The position numbers and the translations under genes were made by a program. The notes beneath the pieces were generated by a model. That model saw nothing but the letters and a program-made list of their open reading frames with translations. It was not told the origin of the DNA and searched no databases. This document shows, in pieces, positions 12,497-59,344 of a stretch of DNA of 60,207 nucleotides (positions within the stretch are counted from its first letter, which is position 1; every line of letters starts with the position of its first letter). The stretch spans positions 1-60,207 of the forward strand of contig JAFWQT010000070.1 of the NCBI GenBank assembly GCA_017508965.1, in the 5' to 3' direction. Origin of the DNA: Prevotella sp. Its GTDB lineage: Bacteria; Bacteroidota; Bacteroidia; Bacteroidales; Bacteroidaceae.

Positions 12497-12682
12497 ATGG
12501 GCCTTTAGAGGAAGAGTTAGCTATCCAGACCAAGCGTTCCAGTTCCAGTTGTTCCAGTTAAAAACAAGGTATGCATTCTTTCTTGTATTATATATAATTA
12601 ATTAATTTATAGGTAGTTATATATAAATACAGAAAATTGGCATCTCAAAAAATCAATTGGAACAACTGGAACAATTGGAACG
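12497..12682 (+). repeat. AT-rich hairpin element, copy A
   Basis: The flank ATGGGCCTTTAGAGGAAGAG (12497-12516) is followed by an inverted repeat built of GTTCCA reiterations. The arms are 12535-12559 and 12655-12682; they pair throughout with one G-T wobble and a small internal loop, around a 95-bp AT-rich centre. Copy B near 31.2 kb has the same flank and layout but different arm sequence. It lies just upstream of the beta-helix lipoprotein gene and reads away from it. Confidence 0.7.
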
Positions 12683-12730
12683 GATGGGATTTCGCTCATT
12701 CAGATTTATTCTAAAAGTGTGCTTCTGATA

Positions 12731-12862
12731 GGCGGAAAACAAAGTTCCATTGGATGGAAAAGAGACTTTAAATGGACGGAAACCAGAGTTCCATTGGGTG
12801 GAAATTAGACTTTAATTGGAAGGTAACCAGACTTTAATTGAATGGTAATTAGACTTTAAATG
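12731..12862 (+). repeat. 22-bp tandem repeat array A (6 units)
   Basis: Six contiguous units of exactly 22 bp. Each opens with a gnnGGnAA-like stretch; four end in AGACTTTAAATG or AGACTTTAATTG, and two (the first and third) end in the variant AGTTCCATTG. No open frame runs through it. Together with hairpin copy A it fills the gap 12451-12893. Confidence 0.9.
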
Positions 12863-12893
12863 TGTTGCCAAGAAAACATAAAAAATAAGGCAA

Positions 12894-12923
12894 TAAAAAA
12901 TTGATTGTCTCACGACAATCAAT
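12894..12923 (-). terminator. terminator for DUF3256 gene or small RNA
   Basis: A perfect 10-bp stem (12900-12909 with 12914-12923, loop TCAC) is followed on the minus strand by six T residues. Confidence 0.8.
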
Positions 12924-12961
12924 CTTTTATTAACCTTAATAATCTAATACCATGAAAAACA
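12894..12961 (-). ncRNA. candidate small RNA 1
   Basis: Predicted minus-strand transcript of about 68 nt. The promoter is GTTG (12998-12995), 20 nt, TAAATTTG (12974-12967), and it ends at the hairpin terminator at 12900-12923. The RNA contains the complement of ACCTTAATAATCTAATACC (12933-12951) and of the ATG that follows it on the plus strand. The opposite strand therefore looks like a leader and start codon, with a stop after six codons. No coding capacity is seen. Confidence 0.4.
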
Positions 12962-12966
12962 CGTTG

Positions 12967-30772: not shown

Positions 30773-30797
30773 TTTTTGCAAATTTAGCGTCTCATTC

Positions 30798-30907
30798 TGG
30801 TGCAAATAGGCTTTAAATGGGTTCCATTTAGACTTTAAATGGGTTCGTTTTAGCCTTTAAATGAAACTCATCCAGACTTTAAATGAAACGCAATTAGACT
30901 TTAAATG
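30798..30907 (+). repeat. 22-bp tandem repeat array B (5 units)
   Basis: Five contiguous 22-bp units, each ending CTTTAAATG; three have the full AGACTTTAAATG core. Same period and core as the array at 12731-12862. It lies 25 bases after the TonB receptor stop, with no reading frame through it. Confidence 0.9.
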
Positions 30908-31085
30908 CAACCTTTCTGCCCATCAAAAGCGTCTCAAAGGGCATTTTTGCCCGCTTTTTGAGCCTTTTTCGGGGTGCATTTTGCCGTTATTTGAGCCTAA
31001 AAAAGGAAAGAGATGCCTTGGAGTGGAAATCTAACTCGTTGATTATCAGAACTTTAATTAATAAATTAACGTTTGTTAAGTCTCA

Positions 31086-31287
31086 AGTCTCAGCGTCTCA
31101 GTTTAAAAAAAGGTACTCCCCAACTCTTCTTTTTTTATTATACATATTATATATATTATTGATTATTAATAAGTTACAAAGCTTTAGAGAGGAGAATACG
31201 ATGTGGATAGTGACCTTTTTTTAAACTGAGACGCTGAGACTGAGACGCTCTGCCCCCTACCCTCAGCCTCATCTCTACAAGGCCCAT
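31086..31287 (-). repeat. AT-rich hairpin element, copy B
   Basis: A perfect 29-bp inverted repeat (31086-31114 and 31213-31241) made of GTCTCA-type reiterations followed by TTTAAAAAAAGGT, around a 98-bp AT-rich centre. On the minus strand it is preceded by ATGGGCCTTGTAGAGATGAG (31287-31268), nearly the same as the flank of copy A at 12497-12516. The rest of 30908-31085 and 31288-31373 shows nothing I can name. Confidence 0.75.
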
Positions 31288-51667: not shown

Positions 51668-51804
51668 CCCCTCCATAAATGGAGGGGAGCAGATAGCAAT
51701 GAAGCTACAAAAAAATACCCCTCCTTAGAAAGGAGGGGCAAGGGGTGGTTGATGAATGTGGAGCAAGGGGTGGTTGATGAATGTGGAGCAAGGGGTGGTT
51801 GATT
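51668..51804. repeat. GC-rich palindromes and 25-bp direct repeats
   Basis: Two palindromes, CCCCTCCAT/ATGGAGGGG (51668-51687) and CCCCTCCTT/AAGGAGGGG (51718-51738), are followed by two and a half copies of a 25-bp direct repeat (units at 51738, 51763 and 51788) that reach the stop codon of the leucine-rich repeat gene. On the minus strand the second palindrome is followed by TATTTTTTT and can act as that gene's terminator. Nothing else is seen in 51568-51667. Confidence 0.75.
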
Positions 51805-53212
51805 ACATTTTCACTTTCACGCTCCTGCCTCCCACTTTCACAATAACAATCTCTCCCCGCTGGATGTTGGTGGCTACGGTAGCCTGACCATCCTTCACGT
51901 TTGCAGAGCCCAGAGCCTTGCCGTCAGCTGTATAAACAGCCACGGCCTGTCCCTCCTGCTCACTCTTCACAGTTATCACCCCTCCATTGGCCGAAATCAG
52001 CACAGGGATGCTCTCCGCAACGGCCTTGGCCGAAGTGGGAGTCTCAGGAGTAGTTTCCGTAAAGATGGCATCCGTCCATACCAAAGTGGCCGTAGCGACA
52101 TCAGAATCCTCATAGCCCGACTTGGTTGCATACACGCTGATTTCGTAGGTGGCAGAGAGGCTGACCTTTGCATCATAGCCTTTTTTAATATCTGTATCTT
52201 TAATCTCGTAAACATACTCCACCCCTTCTGTTTCGCAACTGAATGTCAATTCTTTATCAGCATAACTAATGGTAGGTGTAGCGCATTTCTTCTCTTCAGG
52301 TTGCGTACTACTGCCAGGCTCTCCTTCTTCGATAAACAGGAATTTATTCCATCTATTTGTGGATTTGTATTTTTCTATTGTTCCTTTTGGCACATAAAGC
52401 ATGACGTTATAAAACACATCTTCAGGGAAGCAGTCATAAGTTATTGAACAAGGATTCTCCATTTTAGAAATCACCGAGGTAAGGCCGGTGCAATTAGAGA
52501 AAGCTCTCTCTCCAATGGAAGTCACGGAATTGGGGATGGTTATGGAGGTAAGGCTGCTGCACCCTTGGAAAGCATAGTTTCCGATGCTCGTCACGGAATT
52601 GGGGATGGTCACAGAGGTTAGGGCGCTGCAACCTGAGAAAGCCCAGTCCCCAATGCTCGTCACGGAATTGGGGATGGTCACGGAGGTCAGGCTGCAGCAA
52701 AGAGAGAAAGCAGAGCCTCCGATGGTTGTCACGGAATTGGGGATGGTCACAGAGGTTAGGTCGCTGCAATTATAGAAAGCATAGTCACAGATGGTAATCA
52801 CAGAATTTCCGATGGTCACGGAGGTAAGGCCGGTGCAATTAAAGAAAGCTCTCTCTCCGATGGAAGTCACGGAATTGGGGATGGTAACGGAGGTCAGCCC
52901 GCTGCAATTATAGAAAGCCCAGAATCCGATGGTGGTCACGGAATTGGGGATGGTAACGGAGGTCAGCCCGCTGCACCATTCGAAAGCTCTCTCTCCGATG
53001 GAAATCACCTTCCTAGTGCGAGACATGTAGGTTACTTCCTCGGGGATGTTGACGACTCCTGAATAATTGCCGTTGGATACAACCAACTCTGTACCGTTGT
53101 TTATGTAGTTATAATAGATGGTGACACCATCCGCATTCTCTACTGCAATGTCATATGCGCTAGCCAACAAAGGCAGCGCCATCAATAATGTGGATAAGAA
53201 AAGTTTCTTCAT
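51803..53212 (-). CDS. BspA-like leucine-rich repeat protein
   Basis: A 469-residue secreted or surface protein. After a signal peptide (MKKLFLSTLLMALPLLASA) come eight or nine BspA-type repeats of 23 residues (LTSVTIPNSVTSIG with an AF..C core) over about residues 60-260. A domain with chitobiase-like strands follows (YEIKDTDIKKGYDAKVSLSA), then a C-terminal region ending GEIVIVKVGGRSVKVKM that resembles a type IX secretion sorting tail. BspA proteins bind host or bacterial surfaces. The repeats are nearly identical in DNA, so copy number may vary between strains. Confidence 0.82.
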   Translation of the reverse strand: MKKLFLSTLLMALPLLASAYDIAVENADGVTIYYNYINNGTELVVSNGNYSGVVNIPEEVTYMSRTRKVISIGERAFEWCSGLTSVTIPNSVTTIGFWAFYNCSGLTSVTIPNSVTSIGERAFFNCTGLTSVTIGNSVITICDYAFYNCSDLTSVTIPNSVTTIGGSAFSLCCSLTSVTIPNSVTSIGDWAFSGCSALTSVTIPNSVTSIGNYAFQGCSSLTSITIPNSVTSIGERAFSNCTGLTSVISKMENPCSITYDCFPEDVFYNVMLYVPKGTIEKYKSTNRWNKFLFIEEGEPGSSTQPEEKKCATPTISYADKELTFSCETEGVEYVYEIKDTDIKKGYDAKVSLSATYEISVYATKSGYEDSDVATATLVWTDAIFTETTPETPTSAKAVAESIPVLISANGGVITVKSEQEGQAVAVYTADGKALGSANVKDGQATVATNIQRGEIVIVKVGGRSVKVKM

Positions 53213-58924: not shown

Positions 58925-59169
58925 TCCTCCCTCGGGAGGATTTAGGAGGGGTTCCTTTTACGCTACAAAGATACGAAATCCCACCGCCCATTTTCCCGTT
59001 CCGTCCGCTTATGCCCGAATGCTTCCCATTATAGTCCGTTAAATGTCTAGCCAAGGAACTCCCCGCCCCTGAAGGGGAGGGGTTAGGGGTGGGGAGTGTA
59101 ATATCTGACATCTGCCTGATTTTCTGAATACTGACCCCACCCCTTGCCCCTCCCCTACGATGGGAGGGG
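58925..59169. repeat. three GC-rich palindromes and HU promoter
   Basis: TCCTCCC/GGGAGGA (58925-58940), CCCCgCCCCT/AGGGGaGGGG (59061-59082) and CCCCTCCC/GGGAGGGG (59147-59169) belong to one palindrome family, with tails such as TTAGGGGTGGGG. A minus-strand -7 box TATCTTTG (58973-58966) gives HU a leader of about 88 nt containing the first palindrome. Nothing else is seen in this gap up to the array at 59181. Confidence 0.65.
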
Positions 59170-59180
59170 AGCTGCTGCGC

Positions 59181-59280
59181 AATCAGACTCTGATTGGAAG
59201 TGAATTAAAGTCTAATTGCCCGCGAATTAAAGTCTGATTGAACGTGAATTATAGTCTGATTGAACGTGAATTATAGTCTG
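59181..59280 (-). repeat. 22-bp tandem repeat array C (4.5 units)
   Basis: Four 22-bp units starting at 59181, 59203, 59225 and 59247 plus a half unit at 59269. The core AATTAAAGTCT is the reverse complement of AGACTTTAATT of arrays A and B, so the array lies on the minus strand relative to them. It lies between the divergent HU and DUF4248 genes. Confidence 0.85.
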
Positions 59281-59344
59281 AATAAATTATAATAATTATA
59301 TGAATTTCTGTCCGTAAAAACTTGCGTAATTCGCTGATTTTTAG

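Follow-up and report, generated by a model that had tools for sequence, protein, structure and literature searches.

What are the two long AT-rich hairpins in one contig of a Prevotella genome, and why do they share a flank while their arms differ? The DNA analysed, referred to here as the window, is a stretch of 60,207 nucleotides from a 2.8-Mb assembly with an estimated completeness of 71%. The sequence-only reading saw in the hairpins one composite element, with a stem kept by compensatory base changes. The comparison with related genomes presented below bears out the composite element and points to another origin for the stem: the arms are sets of short repeats (iterons), and the two copies are remains of a cassette with up to three genes, named gene1, gene2 and gene3.

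The two hairpins and their family

Copy B lies on the minus strand. Its arms (31086-31114 and 31213-31241) are 29 bp long and perfectly complementary across a 98-nt loop, and form the top-scoring inverted pair in the window when loops of up to 250 nt are considered. It begins with a left flank, ATGGGCCTTGTAGAG (31273..31287), recognised from the flank pattern and by comparison with gene1 as a relic of the 3' end of that gene. The 5' arm, with GTCTCA iterons and then CAGTTTAAAAAAAGGT, occupies 31213..31249, and is followed by the AT-rich centre (31115..31212) and by the 3' arm, in which one more outer GTCTCA adjoins the 29 complementary bases (31080..31114). Beyond this arm lie a possible relic of the gene2 start (31025..31049, minus strand; CTGATAATCAACGAGTTAGATTTCC against ..ATATCAATGAGTTACGATATTT.., compared by eye with L045 and other loci) and, from a repeat search, a 22-bp array on the gene2 side (30789..30921, plus strand).

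Copy A lies on the plus strand, and its left flank, ATGGGCCTTTAGAG (12497..12510), is again a relic of the gene1 3' end (..GLVE), one base shorter than GGCCTTGTAG. Three GTTCCA iterons (GTTCCAGTTCCAGTTGTTCCAGTT) make up the left arm (12536..12559), and three reverse-complement iterons (TGGAAC) the right arm (12658..12681), with pairing interrupted by one 3-nt insertion. The AT-rich centre between them (12560..12657) has a palindrome-like core, TATATAATTAATTAATTTATAGGTAGTTATATA. On the gene2 side is a 22-bp array (12719..12884, plus strand) which by eye resembles the array after gene3 in the two cassettes of the same genome.

Both hairpins are real, in that none of 200 dinucleotide shuffles gave as good an RNA fold (z of -9.0 for A and -7.0 for B). 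The flank ATGGGCCTT..TAGAG is common to the two, as had been noted, and the pattern ATGGGCCTTN(0-3)AGAG occurs in the window's genome solely at A and B. The inner motif is present at A, and at B in both arms. By eye, the arms of A are three TTCCAG units and those of B three TCTCAG units, so the claim that the arms differ holds for the units; the difference is smaller than claimed, since an outer GCG and an inner CAGTT are common to both.

Exact matches to the flank, which had been proposed as a marker in relatives, proved a poor guide. The flank was found in 16 of 149 genomes of relatives against 22 of 149 for the reversed pattern, and within the genus in 16 of 90 genomes against 9 of 90 for the reversed control, the controls being counted by eye. 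With no overall excess over the reversed pattern and no hairpins at the flank loci, this search was rejected as a test of the family. A hairpin model run on the 16 flank loci outside the window and on six loci with the inner motif gave nothing better than E 0.57.

The family became visible once the arms were allowed to vary in the search. Three spaced copies of GTTCCA were found in 6 of 120 genomes of the genus, and three spaced copies of GTCTCA in 20 of 150. Some of these matches were other direct repeats (the GTCTCA matches to direct-repeat arrays with no hairpin were left out of family counts), and several were hairpins with the layout of A and B. Several of the hairpins found directly precede genes of one protein family, gene2. 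Of 77 loci examined, 23 hairpins with one arm layout were then used to build a covariance model. It scores A with 113.9 bits (E 6.2e-18) and B, on the minus strand, with 47.9 bits (E 2.6e-6). The search of related genomes with such a model, as the sequence-only reading had suggested, found the family in 72 of the 200 genomes searched within the genus (strict filters, with 15 candidates scored per genome). A and B almost certainly belong to one hairpin family, and the composite element can be upheld on this ground and on that of the flank, discussed below.

Other repeats were met in the course of these searches. Direct 10-bp repeats of the GTCTCACTGT type occur in L043, L048, L054, L055 and L058, and in L054 they precede a small gene that by eye resembles an excisionase-type HTH protein. 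Iteron hairpins of a second kind, which by eye have a longer central AT palindrome, are found in L041, L046, L050, L064 and L218; those of L041 and L050 are near HU-HIG genes. The window itself holds a tandem repeat with a 69-bp period (52402-53077, 7 register copies) within an ORF at 51803-53212, adjoined by a 25-bp repeat in 3 copies (51730-51804). A match to the Rfam family FopS, small RNAs of Bacteroidetes, lies just past the array of copy A (12891-12962, minus strand, E 1.3e-9).

The cassette and its probable recognition code

A profile made from an alignment of three gene2 proteins was used to scan genome contigs, which gave 165 relatives, and the best 80 of the 165 were kept. Named relatives come from Prevotella, Segatella and other Bacteroidales. 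Complete cassettes have the order: a small gene1, left iterons, an AT-rich centre, inverted right iterons, gene2 and usually gene3. The centre is mostly about 95-118 nt long with a conserved core between the arms, and in most loci some 25-45 nt separate the right arm from gene2. Among the 80 gene2 loci, gene1 falls into clusters of 55, 8 and 3 loci. The sequence GGCCTNNTAG, the counterpart of the A/B flank, stands before the hairpin at 51 of the 77 cassette loci, with no occurrence in 412 kb of outer flanks. It is in frame as GL(V/I/L) near the end of gene1 in 42 of the 46 loci with a called gene1, and the flank shared by A and B is the 3' end of gene1. In four loci (L079, L084, L086 and L117) GGCCTNNTAG is not in the reading frame of the gene called upstream, so the constraint may be partly at the DNA level.

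Gene2 encodes a DUF3987-like protein of about 435 aa that aligns with the C-terminal half of longer ORFs. One of three such ORFs tested carries BT4734-like_N and DUF3987 domains (PF08800, PF13148), and the other two match no Pfam family. Compared with these long proteins, gene2 is a free-standing half with a hairpin in front and usually a separate primase behind. Gene2 alone (L028 and L039) had no match at cut-off in Pfam, NCBIfam or PHROGs, transposase families included, and its best PDB profile match, a kinase regulatory subunit (E 0.014), was taken as chance. Gene3 follows gene2 in 76 of the 80 loci (gene2 being the query, and contig ends included) and encodes a CHC2 zinc-finger primase (E 1.1e-16 for the one member tested). 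Part of the loci hold further genes downstream, namely DUF4248 (18 loci), HU-HIG genes (clusters of 19 and 11) and an M15 peptidase gene (9 loci, three on the opposite strand), with counts limited by contig ends and domain names taken from the members tested. A second hairpin, CTCCGCGACCT..GGTCGCAGAG, lies within coding sequence at the start of gene3 (L070:2854-2892, and the same place elsewhere), with a covariation score of 0.155 against 0.084 shuffled in 35 of 55 distinct loci.

Each arm is a set of iterons with the unit NNNNCA[G/A]TT, and the two sets are inverted relative to each other. The four leading bases vary among loci and mostly agree between the two arms of one locus. This comparison covered 76 of the 80 loci (L069, L076, L113 and L126 were left out, three for contig-end cuts and one for an insert), and 74 had a callable unit in both arms. 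The same dominant unit was found in both arms at 65 of the 74, where 11.1 were expected and 2000 shuffles gave a maximum of 21. A left arm finds its best partner in the right arm of its own locus in just 22 of 76 cases, because many loci share a unit.

The varying iteron bases track two residues of the gene2 protein. Among 70 proteins, two adjacent residues in a C-terminal QLxxW motif predict the iteron bases N1 and N4. For N1, R goes with G (42), Y with C (9) and N, S or A with A (13); for N4, K goes with C (33), Q with A (16) and V, N or L with T (14). In leave-one-out prediction N1 was right in 64 of 68 cases and N4 in 65 of 70, against commonest-base baselines of 0.64 and 0.49, and the two columns are the best of 226 variable columns in gene2. 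Between nearest-neighbour pairs with a differing base the residue also differs in 26 of 26 (N1) and 23 of 28 (N4), and between those with the same base it is the same in 38 of 44 (N1) and 37 of 42 (N4). Because the residue switches with the base among nearest relatives, shared ancestry is not the explanation.

The code was also applied to 22 further loci, of which 13 are 99-100% identical to a training protein and hence not independent. Among the other nine, L207 and L039 had uncallable units and L210 duplicates the locus L028, which leaves six distinct loci of <91% identity; N4 was right in 6/6 and N1 in 5/5, while L202 has K at the N1 residue, outside the assigned code. Even allowing K for G and H for T, the code is broken in 8 of the 70 loci, among them L128, with units like those of B. 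Gene1 was considered as the reader of the iterons and rejected, as no column stands out (highest z 4.2 against 24). We infer that gene2 reads the iterons, and the protein very probably binds its own set, through a C-terminal DNA-binding domain that is probably a winged helix, as far as the sequences can tell. Four RTTCNAA units also lie upstream of a long BT4734-like_N/DUF3987 gene (L244:559-595), the product of which has a C-terminal QLRKW, consistent with the R,K code; no hairpin was seen at L244.

In several close pairs of loci the hairpin and gene2 have high DNA identity (85-97%) next to an unrelated gene1 or a gene3 of 65-75%. Among the 28 most similar pairs listed, examples of this pattern are L111/L116, L070/L081, L072/L081 and L129/L131; it fits the exchange of a putative cognate pair in one piece. 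In other close pairs, such as L094/L113, L070/L074 and L119/L148, identity continues through gene3, so exchange of hairpin and gene2 as a unit is not general.

Solo copies and the 22-bp arrays

Neither A nor B has a neighbouring gene2 or gene3, and many copies of the family lack a complete gene2. When 30 model sites were fetched, one per genome, nine were complete cassettes, 17 had solely an N-terminal or decayed fragment of gene2, and four had no gene2 (one of them cut by a contig end). Among the matches listed, at least 23 gene2 fragments are N-terminal (L047 also has a C-terminal piece) and one is C-terminal only. Internal deletions can be recognised in L047, which joins gene2 163 to 365, and in L170, which joins gene2 99 to gene3 37. 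The window's genome itself holds two cassettes on the short contigs C67 and C68, with gene2 at full length and gene1 cut by the contig start, together with a fragment copy on C116 and solo copies at A, B and on C31. Judged by what complete cassettes contain, A and B are solo relics that apparently lost gene2 and gene3, with the iteron site and the array beyond it remaining. At L174:1510-3150 two truncated copies stand in tandem and in the same direction, with different iterons (GTTTCA and ATCACA types).

An empty-site comparison was made for B. Among the mce loci of 29 relatives, 15 keep the preceding receptor gene and none holds the B hairpin. With the same gene order found in 15 relatives that lack this hairpin, B is most simply explained as gained. 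The empty site asked for by the earlier reading was found; no target duplication could be defined. One of the 15, L218, has a different iteron hairpin in the same tonB-mce gap as copy B.

The repeated order of flank, hairpin and 22-bp array described earlier was found as stated, with the array on the side opposite the flank in both copies. Within 800 bp of 34 solo sites, which include A and B, the copies that prompted the test, arrays of 21-23 bp were found next to 15 on the gene2 side and next to one on the gene1 side; two of the 15 come from the group L194, L197, L204 and L212, which have no gene2 and for which the side was taken from the model strand, poorly defined by the palindrome. Farther out from the solo sites such arrays occur once in 43 kb, and in complete cassettes they peak just past gene3 (14 of 58). 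An earlier array control was weak, as its loci appear to be mostly coding. The idea that 22-bp arrays are exclusive to the hairpin element was rejected: no hairpin was present in the 2.2-3.0 kb of sequence retrieved around each of four further AGACTTTAAATG arrays from the window's genome. Since arrays also occur without hairpins, they may be a neighbour or target of the element rather than part of it. A third 22-bp array is found in the window at 59178-59309 with no hairpin of the A/B family; it is adjoined by a separate hairpin at 59073-59156, the arms of which are G-rich and C-rich.

Function of the iteron site

Two features expected of an iteron-type replication origin are seen in these loci: several copies of one short sequence, here the repeated NNNNCA units of each arm, and an AT-rich stretch beside the iterons, here the centre between the arms, which is the predicted site of unwinding. 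Gene2 would bind both of its own iteron sets by the C-terminal domain and open the AT-rich centre, and together with the gene3 primase it would start replication of the integrated element. At A and B, gene2 and gene3 would since have been lost, leaving the iteron site and array. We lean slightly towards the iteron site being a replication origin, and find it reasonably likely that A and B are solo relics of such an origin with gene2 as its initiator. Profile searches of collections of viral contigs, plasmids and phages found no gene2 relative, so no free replicating form was seen.

The main rival is an operator, with gene2 repressing or activating its own operon through two iteron sets around a promoter and no replication involved. 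The short distance between right arm and gene2 would suit this, and the residue-base code points to binding and not to its purpose. Against it are the kinship of gene2 with DUF3987 proteins that have a BT4734-like N-terminus, the CHC2 primase gene that usually follows gene2, and the many copies in which the site is kept with no complete gene2. We regard an operator as unlikely.

It is also rather unlikely, in our estimation, that the site is a transposon-like end moved by gene2, with A and B as non-autonomous, MITE-like derivatives. In its favour are the solo copies scattered in the genus, with their preponderance of N-terminal gene2 fragments, the empty site for B and the array retained on the far side. 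By eye, the outer ends GCCTTgTAGA and TCTAAAAAGC look inverted. This reading is opposed by the lack of a transposase family match for gene2 in the databases searched, and by complete copies that code for a DUF3987-like protein and a CHC2 primase. Relatives are too divergent at B for a target duplication to be defined, and fragment copies retain pieces of gene1 outside the hairpin.

A folded RNA (a small RNA, attenuator or terminator) under compensatory change would account for the strong folds of A and B and for the covariation of the arms. The arms do change together, as the sequence-only reading proposed: the alignment of 23 hairpins gives a covariation score of 0.230, compared with 0.101 after shuffling, and 58 doubly changed cells against 26.9, and none of 500 shuffles was as high in either. 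The high score is explained by all units of a locus being alike. Doubly changed pairs (8 against 8.2 shuffled) and pair types (20 against 19.2) show no excess in the same 23 hairpins, and 14 of the 23 are unpaired at one stem column. In 61 distinct hairpins mismatches affect 0.6 to 4.8% of cells at the four varying positions and none at the invariant CA, but 64 of 163 at the purine that follows CA (A.C 36, G.T 25 and A.A 3). As A.C is a wobble on the opposite strand, neither strand is favoured by mismatches alone. With wobble allowed, 39 of the 163 purine cells are still unpairable on one strand, as are 28 of the 163 on the other; the rate at other unit positions is 0 to 5%. This frequent failure of the purine to pair on either strand fits protein sites better than a stem. 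Moreover, the covarying bases are those predicted by gene2 residues, similarity extends to the direct repeats of a single arm, though a stem would not require it, and there is no Rfam family at A or B, a scan of the window giving only FopS and a tRNA elsewhere. An RNA element is therefore very improbable. Concerted change in all repeated units of both arms, in step with two protein residues, would be expected of iterons to which a co-evolving protein binds. The hairpin form would arise because one binding site is present in two inverted sets, rather than because a folded strand was selected, and preservation of the hairpin by compensating base changes is probably the wrong reading. Least credible of all is an invertible promoter flipped by a recombinase between the repeats of B, which are perfect and of suitable size around 98 bp, since the arms are iterons that differ between loci with the neighbouring gene2, those of A are interrupted, and inspection of the loop by eye showed no promoter.

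In iteron origins, the binding specificity of the initiator and the repeats must match, and in geminivirus Rep a few residues change together with the iteron sequence. Geminivirus Rep is an unrelated protein in an unrelated host, and in gene2 each of two adjacent residues corresponds to a single base. A close parallel is with iteron-type plasmid origins and their Rep initiators, which likewise have short repeated protein sites by an AT-rich stretch next to the initiator gene. The present loci differ from such origins (for example PMC4081077) in having two inverted iteron sets around the AT-rich centre, a DUF3987-like protein with a separate CHC2 primase, and copies in genome contigs, with none found in plasmid or phage collections. 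Among elements of the Bacteroidales, the BrickBuilt MITE of Porphyromonas gingivalis is also intergenic and has tandem arrays, of 23 bp, with a leader and tail that have small inverted ends; the available excerpt of that account mentions neither iteron arms nor a linked DUF3987-like gene, and here 22-bp arrays are found without a hairpin as well (PMC4596501). No earlier account of the gene2 cassette was found in the open-licence literature searched.

A more speculative proposal, which we consider improbable, is that the pair of gene2 and iterons may serve as a private identity tag. The joint switching of two residues and two bases would keep elements in one genome from cross-reacting, and solo sites retained after the loss of gene2 would be decoys that capture the initiator of an element with the same tag (a built-in incompatibility or immunity). 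In the window's genome, the unit of A (GTTCCA) is that of the contig 67 cassette, the gene2 of which has residues R,K, and the C116 fragment has the unit ATTCCA of contig 68 (N,K). The units of B (GTCTCA) and of the C31 solo copy (GTTTCA) match neither full-length gene2 found in the 71%-complete assembly.

The iteron cassette accounts for AT-rich hairpins of a kind that is scattered through Prevotella-like genomes. It is widespread in the Bacteroidales and carries a readable protein-DNA code, in which two neighbouring residues correspond to two bases and which has been varied naturally many times. This code allows direct tests of how the specificities of initiator and iterons change jointly.
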